Shown here: positions 249 through 7,504 of the stretch, piece by piece
How positions within the stretch are numbered: the stretch's first letter is position 1
How the letters are laid out: each line of letters begins with the position of its first letter
Origin: Actinomycetota bacterium
Lineage (GTDB): Bacteria > Actinomycetota > Thermoleophilia > Gaiellales > Gaiellaceae
DNA: 7,504 bases
Assembly (NCBI GenBank): GCA_005883235.1
Contig: VAYE01000290.1
Span: 1-7,504, forward strand
Reading direction: 5' to 3'
Notes under the pieces: generated by a model
Seen by the model: the letters and a program-made list of their open reading frames with translations, nothing else
What the model was told of the DNA's origin: nothing
The model's database searches: none
Translations under genes and position numbers: made by a program

Positions 249-470
249 ATGGATCGCAAGGATCTCGGCGACCGGCAGCTCGACGCCGTGCTCGAGCGCC
301 TCGACCGGATCGGCGACGAGCTCCGTGGGCTGAATCGCAAGCTCGACCAGCAGGAGCACCTGCTGCGGATCTCCCGCGAGCTCGCGAGCTTGAACGAGTC
401 GCTCCAGGCGCTCGCCTACGCCGCTCTCGGCCAGCAGGGCCCGTCGGTACGGCGGCGGCGAACCGGCTAG
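249..470 (+). CDS. small coiled-coil protein, hypothetical
   Basis: ATG at 249 to TAG at 468-470 encodes 73 residues with the strong G/C third-position bias of its neighbours, which supports real coding. I do not recognise a named family. Residues about 8-58 are highly charged and heptad-like (LDAVLERLDRIGDEL..., then LNRKLDQQEHLL and LASLNESLQAL), typical of one long amphipathic helix or coiled coil. The tail ends in an Arg-rich run (VRRRRTG). No signal peptide, membrane segment or cysteine is present, so a cytosolic oligomeric or partner-binding protein is the likely form. No clear Shine-Dalgarno sequence precedes the ATG. The short gap after the HAD-like gene suggests translational coupling. 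Its last four bases overlap the end of the convergent minus-strand gene. Confidence 0.6.
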   Translation: MDRKDLGDRQLDAVLERLDRIGDELRGLNRKLDQQEHLLRISRELASLNESLQALAYAALGQQGPSVRRRRTG

Positions 471-486
471 CGCTTAGGAAGCCGGT
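462..486. terminator. possible bidirectional hairpin at the convergent stop codons
   Basis: ACCGGCT at 462-468 is perfectly complementary to AGCCGGT at 480-486, giving a 7-bp GC-rich stem with an 11-base loop. It covers the ends of both convergent genes, where any terminator for either would be expected. Neither strand has a T-run after the stem, so it is not a canonical intrinsic terminator. Actinobacteria are reported to use hairpins without U-tracts, which keeps this plausible. A 7-bp stem in GC-rich DNA can also arise by chance. Confidence 0.35.
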
Positions 487-1891
487 AGATGTCGAGGAAG
501 CCGCTCGTGCTGTGGCTGTTCGCGCTGCCCTCGGGGAGCGCGATCCGCCCGTCGGTGACGATCGGCGACGACCAGTGGCCCGACCCGGCAGGCAGGGTCG
601 CGACCGTGGCGCCGGTCGTCGGCCGGTAGACGCGCAGCCCGCCCCCGTCCGGGTCGTAGACATACAGCAGGCCGCCGGCGACGACGGGGCTCGTTCCGGC
701 CCCGGCCTTCCGCCACACCGCCTGGAGGCGCCCGCCGCTCAGCTCGAAGGCGCGCGTCGAATCGCCGGTCGCGACGAAGAGCCACGTCCGCCCGGCCGAG
801 CTCCACACGGCCGGCGTCGAGAAGAGGCCGGCGCCGAGCGAGAGCGTCTGCAGCTCTCCGCCGCGGCGCGCGCCGGCGCTCGCGGTTCCGTTCAGCCGGG
901 CGAGGCCGAGGAGCCGCAGCTGCGCATCCTTGCCGCTCTGGACGATCAGGCCCGACGAGACGAGAGCCGGAGCGGTCGAGCCGAGGTCGACGTCGTTCGC
1001 CTCGAGGCGGGCCTCGTCGGTCGGTGTCCAATTCTGGAGCAGGCGGCCCGCGTCGGGGCTGAGCATGAGCACGCTGTCGCCCCAGTTACGGCTTCCGTCC
1101 CACTTGCCGTTGCCGGTCGCGAGGAGCAGCCGTCCGCTGCCGGGAAGGACGACGACGCCCGAGCGCGCCCAGATCGCCGAGCCGCTCTCCGAGCAGCTGC
1201 TCGGGGAGATCAGCGTGTGCCGGTCGCTGCAGAGCGCGTTCCAGACGTGCACGAGCCGTCCGGTACGCGCGTCGATCGCGGCCACGTGCCCCTGGTACGG
1301 GGCCGCGTCGCCGATGTAGCCGCCGGTGGTCGCGAGCACGAGGCCGCGCGAGAGGTTGAGCGCAGTGCCGAGCTTCTCGCGCGCCGGAAGCCGCGAGATC
1401 GCCCTCGACCAGATCTCGCGACCCGTGTCAAGCGCGAGCTTGTGGATCCGCCCGTCAGGTGCGCCTGCCCAGACGAAGCGGCGGTCGCTGACCGGGCTCG
1501 AGTTCGTGATCCGGTAGGAGCCGGCCCACGACGAGTACCCGCGAGGCGTGAACCGCCAGAGGATCGCGCCCGAGTCCGCGTTCACGGCGATCGTGCGCCC
1601 GTACGAGGTCGTGAGGACGAAGACGTCGCGCGTCGTGCCCCGCACGCGGACGCCGCGGAGGTAGATCGGCGACGAGTCGGCCGTGCCCGGGATCGAGATC
1701 CGCTGGCGGCGCAGCCGGCCGACGTTCCCGGCCGTGATCCCGGTCGACGCGGGCCCCGCGTTCCGGCGTGCCGCGTCGTAGCCGAAGCGCGTCCAGTCCC
1801 CGCCCGCGCGGACGGCGGCCCGGTTCGGGGCGGCGCTGGCGCAGGCGACGGCGGGCAGCGCGAGCGCGATGCAGAGGAGGGCGAGCCTCAC
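467..1891 (-). CDS. exported PQQ-type beta-propeller repeat protein
   Basis: 474 residues from GTG 1891-1889 to TAG 469-467. The start is chosen because the GTG overlaps the TGA of the upstream gene by 4 bases (GTGA) and opens directly onto a signal sequence: a hydrophobic run at residues 3-16 (LALLCIALALPAVA), then Cys17. This could be a lipoprotein site (AVAC, although Pro at -4 is atypical) or a signal peptidase I site near ASA (18-20). The mature part begins with DWTRFGYDAARRN, typical of quinoprotein/BamB-like propellers. Repeated blade signatures follow: ADSGAILWRF (105-114), LDTGREIWSR (154-163), DARTGRLVHVW (207-217), SPDAGRLLQNW (278-288), SGGRLQAVWRK (385-395) and TTGATVATL (425-433). 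Cys221 and Cys233 could form a disulfide. Many such proteins bind no PQQ, and no catalytic residues are evident; a binding or scaffold role outside the membrane is inferred. It is last in the minus-strand operon. No strong ribosome site is visible, consistent with coupled translation. Confidence 0.85.
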   Translation of the reverse strand: MRLALLCIALALPAVACASAAPNRAAVRAGGDWTRFGYDAARRNAGPASTGITAGNVGRLRRQRISIPGTADSSPIYLRGVRVRGTTRDVFVLTTSYGRTIAVNADSGAILWRFTPRGYSSWAGSYRITNSSPVSDRRFVWAGAPDGRIHKLALDTGREIWSRAISRLPAREKLGTALNLSRGLVLATTGGYIGDAAPYQGHVAAIDARTGRLVHVWNALCSDRHTLISPSSCSESGSAIWARSGVVVLPGSGRLLLATGNGKWDGSRNWGDSVLMLSPDAGRLLQNWTPTDEARLEANDVDLGSTAPALVSSGLIVQSGKDAQLRLLGLARLNGTASAGARRGGELQTLSLGAGLFSTPAVWSSAGRTWLFVATGDSTRAFELSGGRLQAVWRKAGAGTSPVVAGGLLYVYDPDGGGLRVYRPTTGATVATLPAGSGHWSSPIVTDGRIALPEGSANSHSTSGFLDIYRLPKR

Positions 1892-3340
1892 GCGGCCGTC
1901 AGGTCGCGGCGTCCCCAGGGGCCCGGCGGAGTCAGGAGCGACTCGACGCGCAGGAAGGCGAGCCCGACGACGGGGAAGTCGAGCACGCGCTCGACGCAGA
2001 TGTAGCGCGGCCGCCACAGGGGGTGGAACTTGCGGTTGAAGCTGAGCAGCCGCTCGAGCTGGAAGAACCGGTCGAGCCGCAGGAGCCCGAAGCGCGCCGC
2101 GCGGCGCCAGACGGCCCTCCGCTCGCAGCCGCGCAGCAGGTCGGCGAACACGGAGAAGTTGAGCGAGACCTCGCTCGCGCCCCGAAGCCGGGCCCATTCG
2201 ATCGTCTCCACGACGAGGCTCTCCATCAGGCCGTTCGGCGTGTCGCTGCCACGGCGCATGGCTGCGAGCGAGTAGCCGCCGCTCGCGGGCGAGGGAACGA
2301 GCTGGAGGAAGCCGCCGACCTCGCCCTCGGCGTCCTCGGCGATGGCGAGCATCCCCTCCTCGTGGGCGAAGAGCGCGTCCATCGCCATCGTGAAACCGCG
2401 CTCCGGCCACCGCCCTCGCCATTCGTGCGACACGCGCTCGAGCTTCACGCGGAGCTCCGGAGTGACCGAGGTAGATCGAGCGCAGCCCGCAGTCCCGATA
2501 CAGCGGCAGCAGCTCTGCGCTCGCCCCCACGAGCGCGACCCGCCAGGCGCGGTCGTGGGCGACGCGACGGAAGGCGTCGAGCAAGGCGCGGAAGTCGGCC
2601 GGCACGCCGATCGGATCGCCGGCCACGAGAGCGCAGCCGTTGACGACGCGGTAGGCGAGGAACGAGCGGCCGCTCGAGGAGAAGAAGTAGCTCTTGTCGC
2701 GACGGAGCGAGAAGAACGCGAGGCTGTCGTGTCCGTGCTCGCGGACGAGCCGCTCGGCCTGCAGGCGCTCCGGCGGCGTCTGGCGAACGCGGAGCGCGAG
2801 CGGGCGGAGCCACAGGTAGAGCGCACGGGCGCCGAGCGCGAGCGCGAGCAGGCCGAGCGCCTCCTCGATGCGGTCGGAGAAGACCATCCGGTCGGACACG
2901 CGCAGAGTGCCGAGAATCCCCACCGCGACCAGCGCTCCAAGGACGCGGACGAGCGGCCTGATCGTCTCCGGGTCGCCCTGGGCGACGAACTCGTGGCGGT
3001 AGCGCCACAGCGCAGCCAGGAGGACGAGGTGGACGGACGCTTCCTCGACGTCGAGGCCCTTCACCAGGTGCGCGATCGCCGAGACGGCCACGAAGGCCAC
3101 CGCAAGCAGCCAGGCGCGGCGCTTCCGGCGCGCGAGCGACCGCGAGAGCCACACGAGCGCGAGCCCGAGCGAGAGCGCGAGCACACGCGCCGCTTCCGGC
3201 ACACCGGGCGGAAGGACGCCGCGGACGATGTCGAAGCGGTCGGCGAACTCCGGTGTCAGCGCCGAGACGATCCCGATCATCCCGGCGACGGCCGCGCCGA
3301 GCCCGAGGAGGGTCGGCGCGCTCGGGCCACGAACGCGCAC
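1888..3340 (-). pseudogene. MprF-like DUF2156 membrane protein, disrupted by internal deletion and frame change
   Basis: The gene starts at GTG 3340 with GAGG a few bases upstream, 22 bases after the preceding stop, and ends at TGA 1890-1888. The first frame gives 292 residues: about five or six membrane helices (near 10-28, 50-66, 76-93, 100-112, 130-147, 160-178), then the start of the DUF2156 domain of phosphatidylglycerol lysyltransferase-like proteins (HGHDSLAFFSLRRDKSYFF 202-220, GDPIG 241-245, GLRSIYLG 285-292). At about 2455-2470 the coding frame changes. The other frame carries the rest of the domain for about 190 residues: ERVSHEW, ERGFTMAMD, DTPNGLMESLVVE, SLNFSVFADLL, FNRKFHPLWRPRYI. 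The conserved block normally between these parts (FSLEGR...RKVRQSV..., about 43 residues from memory of the family) is missing. Intact relatives transfer an aminoacyl group from tRNA to membrane lipid; that role is inferred by family. As written, no functional protein would be made. Confidence 0.8.
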
Positions 3341-3362
3341 GGACCTCAGGCTAGCGGGCGGC

Positions 3363-3921
3363 CTACTTCTTGAGGAGGACGCGGCGCAGCTCGTCCTCCT
3401 TGCCGGGCTCGAGGATCGCGAGCACCTGGTCGCCCGGCTGGAGCTCGGTCGCGCCGACGGCGATCTCGGCCGTGCCGTTTCGCATCACGGAGATCAGCCG
3501 CGAGCCCTCCGGAAGCGGCAGCTTCTCGACGCGCTTCCCGGCCGAGGGCGAGTCCTTGTCGATCTGCACCTCGACGATCTCGAGGTTCTCCTTGCGCAGC
3601 TCGAGCAGGTGCACGAGCTCGTGCTCGGGCACCTCGTGCTCGACGAGCGCGAGGATGTTCGACGTCGCCGAGACTGTCGGGGAGATCCCGAGCAGGTCGA
3701 AGTGGGCCTGGTTGCGCGGGTCGTTGACGCGCGCGATCACCTTCGGGACGCCGTACTTGTCACGCGCGAGCTGGCAGATGATGATGTTGTCCTCGTCGTC
3801 GCCGGTCGCCGCCACCACGAGGTCGCCGCTGCTCGATCAGGGTCACCTCGTGCCCCATGCGCGTCAGGCTGCGCGTGACGTTGGCGCCGGCCTTCCCTCC
3901 GCCTGCGACAAGCGTGTACAT
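3363..3921 (-). pseudogene. TrkA/CeoC-like K+ uptake regulatory protein, disrupted by internal deletion and frame change
   Basis: ATG 3921-3919 directly abuts the TAG of the upstream TrkA gene and has a good ribosome site (GGAGGT, 3937-3932). The first 31 residues are the Rossmann start MYTLVAGGGKAGANV... with GxGxxG (GGGKAG) and an acidic residue (E30) at the end of strand 2. After LIEQ (about 3829) the frame changes. From 3827 a second frame continues with GDLVVAATGDDEDNIIICQLA, DPRNQAHFDLLGI and an RCK_C domain (DSPSAGKRVEKLPLPEGS ... LQPGDQVLAIL) to TAG 3365-3363, 154 residues. Alignment by eye with the neighbouring TrkA protein shows about 34 residues missing (strand 3 and the following helix); adding them restores about 220 residues, the usual TrkA length. 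The family binds NAD(H) and gates K+ transporters from the cytosolic side. An assembly artefact is as likely as a true pseudogene. Confidence 0.85.
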
Positions 3922-4359
3922 CTAGGACTGCACCTCCGCCGGCTCGCGGACCGGCACCTCGCAGCTGCGGACCGCCTCGCTGAGCGTGTCGATCGCCGTC
4001 TTCGTCGGGCAGACCGTGCGCAGGCCGAGCTCGCGGTAGAAGTCGGCGCGGGCCGGGTCGAGGACGCGAACGACGACGCACTGGATGTCGAAGCGCTTCT
4101 GGGCCACCTGGGCGATCACGAGGTTCGTGTTGTCGCCGTTCGTGGCGACGACGACGGCGTCGGCCTCCTCGATCCCGGCCTGGCGGAGGACTTCCACGTC
4201 CATGCCGTGGCCGGCGATGAAGCCGCCGCCCCAGTGGCTCCCGAGCCGGTTCAGCGCCTCCTCCTTCTCGTCGATCGCGACGACGTCCCAGCCTTCGTGG
4301 TCGAACTGGAGCGCGATCGACGAGCCGACGCGGCCGCATCCGATGACGATCAATTTCAT
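3922..4359 (-). CDS. TrkA-N (RCK_N) domain protein, CeoB-like, short form
   Basis: 145 residues from ATG 4359 to TAG 3924-3922. MKLIVIGCGRVGSSIA carries the Rossmann GxGxxG (GCGRVG) and Asp30 closes strand 2, the usual NAD(H) ribose contact. GGGFIAGHGMDVEVLRQAGI, ADAVVVATNGDNTNLVIAQVA and VVVRVLDPARADFYRELGLRTVCPT complete a full RCK_N fold. The protein stops after about 145 residues with no RCK_C domain, whereas TrkA proteins are usually near 220. The domain ends cleanly and the next gene begins immediately, so this looks like a genuine short form. It probably pairs with the second TrkA protein to gate a membrane transporter, as CeoB/CeoC are thought to do. Only a weak ribosome site is visible. 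The 46 bases before it (4360-4405) hold no convincing promoter or hairpin. Confidence 0.85.
   Translation of the reverse strand: MKLIVIGCGRVGSSIALQFDHEGWDVVAIDEKEEALNRLGSHWGGGFIAGHGMDVEVLRQAGIEEADAVVVATNGDNTNLVIAQVAQKRFDIQCVVVRVLDPARADFYRELGLRTVCPTKTAIDTLSEAVRSCEVPVREPAEVQS
3932..3937 (-). promoter_or_regulatory. Shine-Dalgarno site for the second TrkA gene
   Basis: GGAGGT on the minus strand lies 10 bases before the ATG at 3921, inside the last codons of the upstream TrkA gene. It is the clearest ribosome binding site in the operon, and together with the TAG-ATG abutment it fixes the start of the second TrkA gene even though that reading frame is broken about 90 bases later. Confidence 0.75.
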
Positions 4360-4405
4360 TGGCTCAGCGTAGCTCGTGGTGGGGCTGTTGCGGGCCTGTC
4401 AGCGG

Positions 4406-6295
4406 CTACGTGACCGCGCCGTCGCCCTCGCCTTCCAGGACGCCTTGCGGGAACGCGACGATCAGGACCTCGCACGGCGCCTTGCGGAGGACGTAGTCGA
4501 CCGTCGGCGAGAAGAACCGCGACTGGCGGCGCCAGCGCGGCGACGAGCCGAGGACGATCAGGTCGGCGTCACGAGCCCGCGCCTCGTCGACGATCGCCTG
4601 CCCGATCGAGCGCGCGCGCACCGTCGCGCCGTTGACCTGCACGCCGTAGTCGGCCCCGAGCAGCGTCGCCTCGGCGAGCGACGCGGCCGCTCGCTCGTCC
4701 GCGTCGGCGAGCTCCGCGTCGAGGGGCAGGTCGAGCGGCACCTGGATCACGTAGAGCGCCTCGACGGCGGCCCCGCTCTCCTGGGCGAGCTTCACCGCCG
4801 TCGCGATCATCTCCTCCCCGATCTCGCCGAGCTTCATCGGCACGAGGATCCTCGAGTACGTGGCCTCCGGAAGCACCTGCTCGTCGGCCGAGCGGACGTG
4901 CTCGAGGAGCCCCGCGCCGCGCCCCCGACGGACGAGGAGGTAGACGGCGAGCCCGATCACGAGCCAGACGGGACCCCCGTAGCGGGCGCCACGGTGCGTC
5001 ACCATGGCGTCGACGAAGATCGTCGCGGTCGCGAGCGCACCGAGCGCCGAGGGCAGCGGCACGCCGCGGTAGACGAGCGGAACGCGGAAGGGACGCCGCA
5101 GGTCGGGTCGCGTCATCCGGAGCCGGATCACCGCGAGCTGCGCCGCCGTGAAAGCCAGCAGCACGCCGAAGCTGAACAGGCTGGCCAGGAACGCGACGCG
5201 GTCGTGGAGCAGCGACGTGACGCCGAGGAGCGCGACGGAGATCACCGCGGCCGAGGCGATCGCCACCGGCGCGACGAGCGTGCGCCGGTTCAGGCGCCCG
5301 AACGCCGCCGGCAGCTGCCCGTGCTCGCCGAGCGAGTACGCGAGCCGGCCGAACCCGGAGATCGAGGTGGTCGCCGCCGCCAGCAGGACCAGCGCGCCCG
5401 TGATCCCGACGTAGACCCGAAGCGCGGACTGGAACCAGCTCGGCAGGTGGCCGTGGAAGGCCGAGACGATCCCCACGAGCGGCGCGTGCAGCCAGGTCGT
5501 CCCGAGCGCCGTCGTCCCGCCGCGGGCCGGGAAGGCCGAGAGCGCGACGAGGGCGATCAGGACGTAGATCACGACGACGAGCCCGACGGCGCCGAAAAGG
5601 CCTCGCGGCAGATCGCGACCCGGCCGGCGGATCTCCTCGGCGAAGTTCGCCACGGTCTCGAGACCGGTGTAGGCGAGCATCGCGAGCGGCACCGCGAAGG
5701 CGATCGCATGCCACGAGGGGTTCGTGCCGAGCGACGTCCCCATCGTGAGCGCATGGGGGGAGAAGACGGCCGCGAAGCCGACGCCGACGAGCAGCAGCTG
5801 CGTCACGAGATCGAGCGCCGGGACGACGATCCCGAACGTGTGGACGGCCGGGCGCCGGAACGCGCGCGCAAGCGTGACCAGGACGATCGCACCCATCCCG
5901 ACGACCACGTCCCACGGCTTGCGGCTGAGCGCGTCGACGTGGAGCGCCGTCCCGAGATAGTGCGGCATGAAGAGCGCCGACAGCGCGATGACGATCAGGT
6001 AGTCGAGGAAGAGGGCCCAGCCGGTGAGGAACCCAGCCAGGTCGTTGAAGGCGATCCGGACGAACGTGGCGGCCCCGCCGGTCTCGCGGATCGCCGCCGT
6101 GCCCTCCGCATAGGAGAGGGCGACGAGGAGGAAGAGGAGCCCGACCAGCCCGAGGACGAGCGGCGTGAAGCCGAGCGCGTGCAGGGCGACGATCCCGAGG
6201 GCGAAGTAGATCGAGGAGGCGATCTCGCCGTAGGCGACCGAAGCGAGCGCCGGGGCGTCCAGCACACGCTGCAGCCGCGGCAGCTTTCGAGCCAT
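4406..6295 (-). CDS. APC family permease with C-terminal universal stress (Usp) domain
   Basis: 629 residues, ATG 6295 to TAG 4408-4406, complete. Residues about 15-455 form a 12-helix APC-superfamily transporter: ALASVAYGEIASSIYFALG (17-35) is the unwound first-helix region and resembles the SSVAYG motif of the K+ transporter KimA; AYTGLETVANFAEEIRRPGRDLPRG (208-232) is the classic APC helix-6/loop signature; FGRLAYSLGEHGQLP (315-329) is the conserved loop before helix 9. Residues about 479-615 form a cytosolic Usp domain (YSRILVPMK ... VDYVLRKAPCEVLIVAF). Its nucleotide-binding motif G-x2-G-x9-G-S/T is degenerate: it reads GSSP at 583-586, with Ser where the last Gly should be, so ATP binding may be lost. 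The length matches actinobacterial Rv2690c-like permeases. Substrate is unproven: K+ is suggested by the adjacent TrkA genes, amino acids by the fold. It starts 12 bases after the small membrane gene, with no strong ribosome site. Confidence 0.85.
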   Translation of the reverse strand: MARKLPRLQRVLDAPALASVAYGEIASSIYFALGIVALHALGFTPLVLGLVGLLFLLVALSYAEGTAAIRETGGAATFVRIAFNDLAGFLTGWALFLDYLIVIALSALFMPHYLGTALHVDALSRKPWDVVVGMGAIVLVTLARAFRRPAVHTFGIVVPALDLVTQLLLVGVGFAAVFSPHALTMGTSLGTNPSWHAIAFAVPLAMLAYTGLETVANFAEEIRRPGRDLPRGLFGAVGLVVVIYVLIALVALSAFPARGGTTALGTTWLHAPLVGIVSAFHGHLPSWFQSALRVYVGITGALVLLAAATTSISGFGRLAYSLGEHGQLPAAFGRLNRRTLVAPVAIASAAVISVALLGVTSLLHDRVAFLASLFSFGVLLAFTAAQLAVIRLRMTRPDLRRPFRVPLVYRGVPLPSALGALATATIFVDAMVTHRGARYGGPVWLVIGLAVYLLVRRGRGAGLLEHVRSADEQVLPEATYSRILVPMKLGEIGEEMIATAVKLAQESGAAVEALYVIQVPLDLPLDAELADADERAAASLAEATLLGADYGVQVNGATVRARSIGQAIVDEARARDADLIVLGSSPRWRRQSRFFSPTVDYVLRKAPCEVLIVAFPQGVLEGEGDGAVT

Positions 6296-6307
6296 CTCGC
6301 GCGGAGG

Positions 6308-6478
6308 TTAACGCTGACGCAGGAGGTGGAGCCTGGCCGCTCCGAGGGCGACGAAGAGCGCGCCGAGCACGAAGCCCACGAGGCCGCCGCCGGCGAGCGC
6401 GGTCACGACGAGGAGCGCGACGCCGATCCCGACGAACAGGACGGCGAAGACGGCGACGCCGAGCCGGTAGGCCCTCAC
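6308..6478 (-). CDS. small two-helix membrane protein, hypothetical
   Basis: 56 residues from GTG 6478-6476 to TAA 6310-6308. The GTG overlaps the TGA of the upstream permease by 4 bases (GTGA), the same coupling seen at 1888-1891, which supports this start over the much longer open frame running upstream through it (a shadow of the permease). Nearly the whole protein is hydrophobic: helices at about 6-28 (LGVAVFAVLFVGIGVALLVV) and 30-50 (GGLVGFVLGALFVALGAARL), with a Gly-rich turn between. Arginines at both ends (R2, R5; R49, R54, R56) suggest a hairpin with both termini in the cytosol. No family recognised. Its place between two paralogous permeases suggests a small accessory subunit, which is inference from position only. 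Confidence 0.7.
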   Translation of the reverse strand: MRAYRLGVAVFAVLFVGIGVALLVVTALAGGGLVGFVLGALFVALGAARLHLLRQR

Positions 6479-7504
6479 GCCGCTCGCGAGGCAGCGGCGA
6501 CCATGACCCGGCAGGGCGCGTGCTTCAGCACGTAGTCGACGGTGTCGCCGAAGATCGCCCGCTGCGCTCCGATGGCACGCGCCTCGTCGAGGAGCTCGTT
6601 CGCCCTGCGCTCCTCCTCGGGAAGCCGCGCGTCGAGCGGAAGCTCGAGCGGCACCTCGATCACGCTGACGGCGGTGATCGACGCTCCCCGCTCGGCCGCC
6701 AGCCGGCACGCGAGGTCGACCGCCTCCTCCGACTCGAGCGCATCCGAGACGGGAACGAGGAGCTGCCGGTACTCGAGCGCGATCGCCCGGCCGATCGGCA
6801 CCGGAGCGCGCACCGTCTCGGCAAGGGGGGCCTGGACGAACCGTCTGCGGAAGACGGCGTAGAAGGCGAACCCGGCCACGAGCCAGCCGAGGCCCGCGTA
6901 GCGGGTCGGCGCGTCCTGGACGACCACGACGAGCCACGCGACCCCCGTGCCCAGGCCACCGAGGATCGCGAACAGCGGCCAGTCCACTCCGCGGTAGCGA
7001 ATGTTGGGACGGGCTCGGAACACCGCCTCCTCCTCGCGCCGCTTGTACCGGAGCGCGACCACGGCGGCGTGGGCGACCGTGAACGAGAGCATCGCGCCGA
7101 ACGCGTACATCCGCCCGATGAAGTCGACATTCCCCGGGAGGAGGAACACGATCGACGCGATGCCGGCGAAGACGACGAGGGAGAGCCACGGCGTCTTGAA
7201 GCGCGGATGCAGGCGGCGGAAGACCTCCGGCAGCTGCCGGTACGAGGCCATCGAGTACGTGATCCGTGAGGCGCCGATCACGCCCGCGTTCGTGGCGATG
7301 AAGAGGATCGTCGCGGCGAGGATGCCGACGTAGACCTTCGCCGCCTGGAGGATCTGGCCGTGCAGGCCGAGGTTCTCGACGAGGCCGAGCACGGGGTCGT
7401 TCTTGAACCCGCCCCCGCCGTGGGCGCCCGGCGCCTGGCCGAGCCTCGTCACGAAGTGCCCGGCCGAGTCGCGGTGAACCGGGAGCGCCGAGAGCGCGAT
7501 CCAC
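6475..7504 (-). CDS. APC family permease with truncated C-terminal Usp domain (5' end outside window)
   Basis: The open frame enters from the right edge (first full codon at 7503, reading WIALSALPV) and ends at TGA 6477-6475; 342 residues are visible. A GTG at 7452 is internal to the coding region. The permease part covers the C-terminal half: VYVGILAATILFIATNAGVIGASRITYSMASYRQLPEVF matches the helix 8 and conserved-loop region of the complete permease downstream, followed by about four more helices and a basic RRRF linker. The Usp domain starts at YRQLLVPVSD and shares VIEVPLELPLDARL with the paralogue (VIQVPLDLPLDAEL), but jumps from LLDEARAIG to FGDTVDYVLKHAPCRVMVAA. By alignment to the paralogue about 42 residues (126 bases) are absent, including strand 4 and most of the nucleotide-binding motif. 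The frame is kept, so a protein could be made with a defective Usp domain. It is the first operon gene visible; the promoter is outside the window. Confidence 0.82.
   Translation of the reverse strand, partial: WIALSALPVHRDSAGHFVTRLGQAPGAHGGGGFKNDPVLGLVENLGLHGQILQAAKVYVGILAATILFIATNAGVIGASRITYSMASYRQLPEVFRRLHPRFKTPWLSLVVFAGIASIVFLLPGNVDFIGRMYAFGAMLSFTVAHAAVVALRYKRREEEAVFRARPNIRYRGVDWPLFAILGGLGTGVAWLVVVVQDAPTRYAGLGWLVAGFAFYAVFRRRFVQAPLAETVRAPVPIGRAIALEYRQLLVPVSDALESEEAVDLACRLAAERGASITAVSVIEVPLELPLDARLPEEERRANELLDEARAIGAQRAIFGDTVDYVLKHAPCRVMVAAASRAA

Follow-up and report, generated by a model that had tools for sequence, protein, structure and literature searches.

Local faults in short-read metagenome assemblies are the closest described counterpart of the locus considered here. 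In the cases set out in PMC7111523, local assembly errors and scaffolding gaps lie within good consensus sequence and leave protein-coding genes incomplete or wrong. Pseudogene formation by deletion also yields truncated or frame-shifted reading frames. The window (the whole stretch of DNA that was analysed, 7504 bases) carries a minus-strand operon of six genes, three of which are interrupted by internal gaps. Judged from its sequence, it resembles the cases of PMC7111523, where read support is the test, in having local faults in good consensus, but it contains no Ns. Compared with pseudogene formation by deletion, the window differs in showing no decay elsewhere, three events of like size, and a near-identical whole copy of one of the affected proteins. 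Other copies of the operon offer a further comparison, as blocks of 35 to ~150 nt are missing from one conserved gene with protein matches on both sides (in L020, for the preceding part only). Unlike the window, these copies show one loss per locus rather than three, at other positions. We consider it very likely that the three gaps are assembly errors and that the genome carries whole genes.

Position and context of the three gaps

The first-pass annotation of this DNA had proposed that three operon genes each lack one clean internal block, and alignment to L001 (VAXK01000292.1, from soil MAG AC_30), the closest of the relatives identified and our reference for gap sizes, bore this out. Nucleotide identity between L001 and the window is 83–88% on every aligned piece. 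L001 stops short of the first 229 minus-strand bases, and the last 705 nt of the pre-gap part of permease-1 align to L001 1–705. The losses had been placed at about 126 bases near 6565 in the permease-1 Usp domain, 101–104 bases near 3829 in TrkA-2, and about 130 bases near 2463 in the DUF2156 gene. These positions and sizes agree with the measured values to ~5 nt (Table 1).

The gaps alter what can be read from each gene. In permease-1 of the window, the Usp profile (Pfam, 141 positions) is matched at positions 2–67 only, compared with 2–139 in L001. The callable TrkA-2 ORF (3363–3818) starts at an internal GTG. Following its frameshift, the DUF2156 frame reads on into the PQQ gene, which gives a 957-aa ORF (467–3340).

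Table 1. Features of the window operon and block losses in other copies of the operon. Gap sizes in the window are relative to L001.
Locus	Feature	Position	Strand	Description and basis
Window	Junction 1, permease-1 Usp domain	6570..6571 (+6570/6571)	-	129 nt (43 codons) absent, frame kept; seen with 32/34 references
Window	Junction 2, TrkA-2	3825..3826 (+3825/3826)	-	104 nt absent, frameshift; seen with 31/31 references
Window	Junction 3, DUF2156/LPG_synthase_C	2467..2468 (+2467/2468)	-	125 nt absent, frameshift; seen with 8/10 references
Window	Permease-1 (AA_permease_2 + start of Usp), pre-gap part	6571..7503	-	Extends past window end; ORF and Pfam
Window	Permease-1 C-terminal Usp remainder	6475..6570	-	Alignment to L001
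Window	Permease-2 with Usp domain	4406..6295	-	629 aa, intact; ORF, relatives' loci, Pfam
Window	TrkA-1 (TrkA_N only)	3922..4359	-	145 aa, intact; relatives' loci, Pfam
Window	TrkA-2, first 32 codons, pre-gap	3826..3921	-	Alignment to L001, relatives' loci
Window	TrkA-2 remainder (end of TrkA_N + TrkA_C)	3363..3825	-	ORF, homologues, Pfam
Window	DUF2156/LPG_synthase_C membrane protein, first 291 codons	2468..3340	-	Relatives' loci, P0121
Window	DUF2156/LPG_synthase_C protein, last 192 codons	1888..2467	-	Alignments, P0121
Window	PQQ-repeat beta-propeller protein	467..1891	-	Intact, start codon picked by eye; ORF, relatives' loci, Pfam
L034	Loss in permease-2	near L034:8821		85 nt lost; AC_ set
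L030	Loss in permease-2	near L030:8843		87 nt lost; AC_ set
L008	Loss in PQQ			~70 nt lost; AC_ set
L012	Loss in permease-2			35 nt lost; AC_ set
L020	Loss at 3' end of TrkA-1			Less clean; sequence after loss aligns poorly, only preceding part matched; AC_ set
L022	Loss in PQQ	L022:13032-13033		~150 nt lost, in frame; non-AC MAG

Several other features of the layout were recorded. Two larger differences from L001 were considered as further losses from the window and rejected: the 827 and 453 extra nt of L001 near rc 4136-4145 and 7025-7035 look like insertions in L001, and L008 and L014, and L002 and L012, match the window arrangement. L001 has a PIN-domain gene (L001:4309-4890) in the interval from TrkA-2 to DUF2156, and the spacing between these two genes in the window, L008 and L014 is too small to hold it. 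The two TrkA genes differ in domain content, with TrkA_N alone in TrkA-1 (3922–4359) and TrkA_N plus TrkA_C in TrkA-2 (3363–3921). At 467–470, the PQQ gene on the minus strand converges with a small plus-strand ORF (249–470), and their ends overlap by 4 nt.

Ambiguity at the junctions is near chance, and no repeat is present through which recombination or a k-mer join could have arisen. Against L001, the joining point can be shifted by 2 nt in permease-1, 1 nt in TrkA-2 and 2 nt in DUF2156, while random L001 places with the same spacing slip by 0.88 nt on average, with a probability of 0.23 for at least 2 nt. A direct repeat or overlap at the block ends, which repeat-mediated deletion or k-mer collapse would call for, is absent beyond these 1–2 nt shared with L001. 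Short repeats were also rejected as a cause: repeats of 9 nt lie at or across two of the window junctions, yet the block ends on L001 match over 1–2 nt only.

Purifying selection is evident on both sides of each gap. Relative to L001, dN/dS on the two sides is 0.15/0.23 in permease-1, 0.22/0.28 in TrkA-2 and 0.19/0.30 in DUF2156, within the range of 0.12–0.40 seen in the intact genes (permease-2, 0.12; TrkA-1, 0.40; PQQ, 0.19). No further stops or frameshifts were found in the gene pieces flanking the gaps. Divergence from L001 shows no clear step at the junctions. Pseudogene formation by decay was rejected, since neither relaxed selection nor extra lesions were seen (dN/dS 0.15–0.30 on six flanks).

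Missing segments in relatives and near-identical proteins

The missing segments are conserved, as the first-pass annotation had assumed. We identified 34 syntenic loci, including L001, by scanning genome contigs with permease-2. With the L001 proteins as queries and L001 counted, the segment was present in every locus that covers the place: 33/33 for permease-1 (L025 has no permease-1), 33/33 for TrkA-2 (L030 has no TrkA-2) and 10/10 for DUF2156, whose place is uncovered in 24 loci. Among 103 genomes from L001's family, a TrkA match was found in 96, and 74 listed TrkA-2 copies (rows counted by hand) run unbroken from residue 10 to at least residue 217. The remaining family genomes have partial or merely distant TrkA matches. 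Two of the partial matches were inspected: one ends at a contig end (G077) and the other is frameshifted near residue 170 (G046). The latter change of frame (L047; G046:C1:67500-71500) lies on a contig of 3.28 Mb.

Database homologues gave the same picture. Finding all three gaps in close homologues would have spoken against an assembly error, and no such homologue was present among those examined. The gap of the window, with both of its ends, is absent from the 119 listed homologues of each protein, some of which do not cover the place. Internal gaps of at least 10 residues in these sets occur in two TrkA-2 homologues (P0060, 13 residues; P0062, 21 residues), two DUF2156 homologues (P0122, 13 residues; P0139, 84 residues) and one permease-1 homologue (P0245, 13 residues). 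Three TrkA-2 matches (P0088, P0096 and P0119) are 151–152 aa long and start near the start of the window's TrkA-2 ORF.

A search with the last 193 DUF2156 residues found P0121, a 525-aa protein (source 'ena') encoded on a 2151-base contig, which matches the window pieces at 288/290 residues on the left and 192/192 on the right (480/482 in total). P0121 carries the 42 residues missing from the window, which shows that the DUF2156 gene is whole in what is very probably the same species. The corresponding copies of the other two proteins are more distant. The best copies seen that match both halves, P0004 for TrkA-2 (31/31 and 135/146) and P0242 for permease-1 (304/342), both carry the missing part, and no near-identical whole copy of either protein was present among the homologues examined. 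A second protein near-identical to the window DUF2156, P0139 (source 'src', 441 aa), lacks 84 residues; its left endpoint is that of the window (291/292) and its right endpoint differs. Judged from these two sequences, the common left endpoint hints at something sequence-bound at this place in DUF2156, where reads may end.

Similar losses across assembly sets

Losses of the same kind occur elsewhere among the operon copies (Table 1). To find them, a panel of whole copies was searched against all 34 loci, followed by alignments, and events were called by eye. The permease-2 blocks missing from L030 and L034, which come from different soil samples, overlap without being identical. Block loss was found in 5/13 AC_ soil MAG loci compared with 1/21 others (L022; Fisher p = 0.021, a post hoc test on few events in which loci were sorted after the losses had been seen). 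The p value becomes 0.059 without L020, 0.015 without L020 and L022, and 0.079 when the N-gap of L032 is added as a second non-AC event. This is suggestive of loss tracking the assembly set among relatives.

Judging by sample names, the AC_ set corresponds to the MAGs of PMC6784897. The assembly account in that paper gives IDBA-UD for the MAGs, and MEGAHIT with the IDBA-UD scaffolder for sample 14_0903_13_30cm, from which L020 comes. The same account states that scaffolding errors in bins were corrected, and the losses remaining in the AC_ set therefore need not be scaffolding errors.

Gaps marked by Ns were also seen. L032 has a run of 34 Ns inside permease-2 where comparison with 31 references gives a median of ~70 nt (range -30 to 70), and secA of the same genome (G101) is broken by a run of 175 Ns. 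As a control, the 34 genomes were also considered for rpoB (matches in 22) and secA (matches in 29). Apart from the N-run in secA of G101, no clear within-contig loss was seen by eye, although this control is too small to compare the operon with other genes, as many genomes had no match or a partial one. One rpoB copy (G005) is cut by a contig end.

Three losses in one contig exceed chance. If losses fall at the rate of all 34 loci together (6 events over ~169 kb of gene sequence that could be matched, a rough figure given that events were called by eye), the probability of at least three losses in an assumed 6.9 kb is ~0.002. The rate of AC_, the worst assembly set (5 events in ~61 kb, also rough), gives ~0.02. 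Since three losses of 104–129 nt exceed even the AC_ rate, the assembly of the window would need to be worse than that of the AC_ binned contigs. Poorer assembly would plausibly fit an unbinned metagenome contig, a status that is our guess.

Origin of the gaps

A systematic assembly error had been named as the likeliest cause in the first-pass annotation, and the conserved segments, whole P0121, blunt junctions and losses in other assemblies support it. The sub-causes suggested there, collapsed strain variation or a mis-joined graph, fit less well, as the junctions share only 1–2 nt and divergence shows no clear step. We infer instead a blunt join of neighbouring contigs from the same genome. 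The window is probably a short-read scaffold in which such contigs were butted together across unassembled stretches of 104, 125 and 129 nt, with no Ns left. The exact step could have been a gap estimate at or below zero, the stripping of Ns, or a local assembly error. A strongly underestimated gap, as in L032, could emerge with no Ns and so produce the blunt joins of the window. Consistent with blunt joining, the missing segments are found in all covering relatives and in P0121, and like faults are found in similar assemblies, with the AC_ and other loci counted above excluding L032, whose N-run underestimates its gap.

The three gaps hold no biological novelty and clearly illustrate that contig joins can mimic gene decay. 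Clean losses of ~100 nt without Ns pass as gene decay or as short protein variants, and enter databases in that form. In this one operon, 6/34 loci show such a loss, although the sample is small and one of the six is less clean. Block losses should be checked for whenever pseudogenes or truncated domains are counted in contigs from metagenomes. Here, a near-identical protein from another assembly was enough to expose one of three gaps without reads.

Collapse of strain variation, or a join of different genomes, is very unlikely as the source of the gaps. Soil metagenomes contain many close strains, and P0139 looks by eye like a strain mosaic. However, strain collapse or a graph join fits less well because a repeat or overlap would be expected at the junctions, which have no common word and 1–2 nt only, and a join of different genomes fits less well because divergence would be expected to change there. 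L001 is the best-scoring locus overall and matches all pieces at the same 83–88% identity. We regard it as similarly improbable that the gaps are real, recent, non-homologous deletions of ~100–130 nt in a strain that is losing the operon and whose genes have otherwise yet to decay. Clean block ends agree with this scenario, and unchanged selection on both sides fits artefacts and very recent events equally well. However, the scenario needs three separate deletions of similar size, each in a different gene, with intact neighbours spared; the near-identical DUF2156 protein is whole, the block ends have no repeats, and like losses among relatives track the assembly set (on few events). That the three proteins are natural short forms is extremely unlikely: TrkA-2 matches of 151–152 aa exist, as noted above, but the TrkA-2 and DUF2156 losses shift the frame, the segment is missing in 0/33, 0/33 and 0/10 covering loci, and no listed homologue (not all of them cover the place) shows the gap of the window with both its ends.

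Structure-driven loss is unlikely overall. Here, blocks folding into hairpins would make polymerases stall or jump, either in vivo or while the library is prepared, and reads would stop at these places or skip them. The library form of this idea overlaps with the assembly error that we favour, as a cause behind it. The evidence differs among genes. The DUF2156 block of L001 folds more stably than shuffled versions of it (z -2.32; 3/200) and its ends pair, with a fraction of 0.039 of other places at least as closed; the TrkA-2 block is weaker (z -1.43; 20/200; end closure 0.116). P0139, with the same DUF2156 left endpoint as the window, is also in keeping with this cause. In contrast, the permease-1 block does not fold well (z +1.15; end closure 0.50), four losses in other loci (L034, L030, L008 and L012) have end closures of 0.30–0.69, and the blocks folded are those of L001, not those of the window. 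Across the seven losses tested for end-closing hairpins there is no clear excess, and DUF2156 alone stands out. The G+C content of the missing blocks is not extreme within L001, which averages 72% (percentiles 0.76, 0.49 and 0.76); this speaks against structure-driven loss, and GC drop-out was rejected on the same grounds. A broader form seems quite unlikely, in which polymerases halt or skip, in vivo or in the library, at hairpins formed by certain stretches of these very GC-rich genes of soil actinobacteria, and blocks of ~100 nt are lost repeatedly at the same places across independent data sets. If it were true, two observations would be its traces: the left endpoint at which the window and P0139 both break off, and the overlap between the permease-2 blocks lost from L030 and L034.
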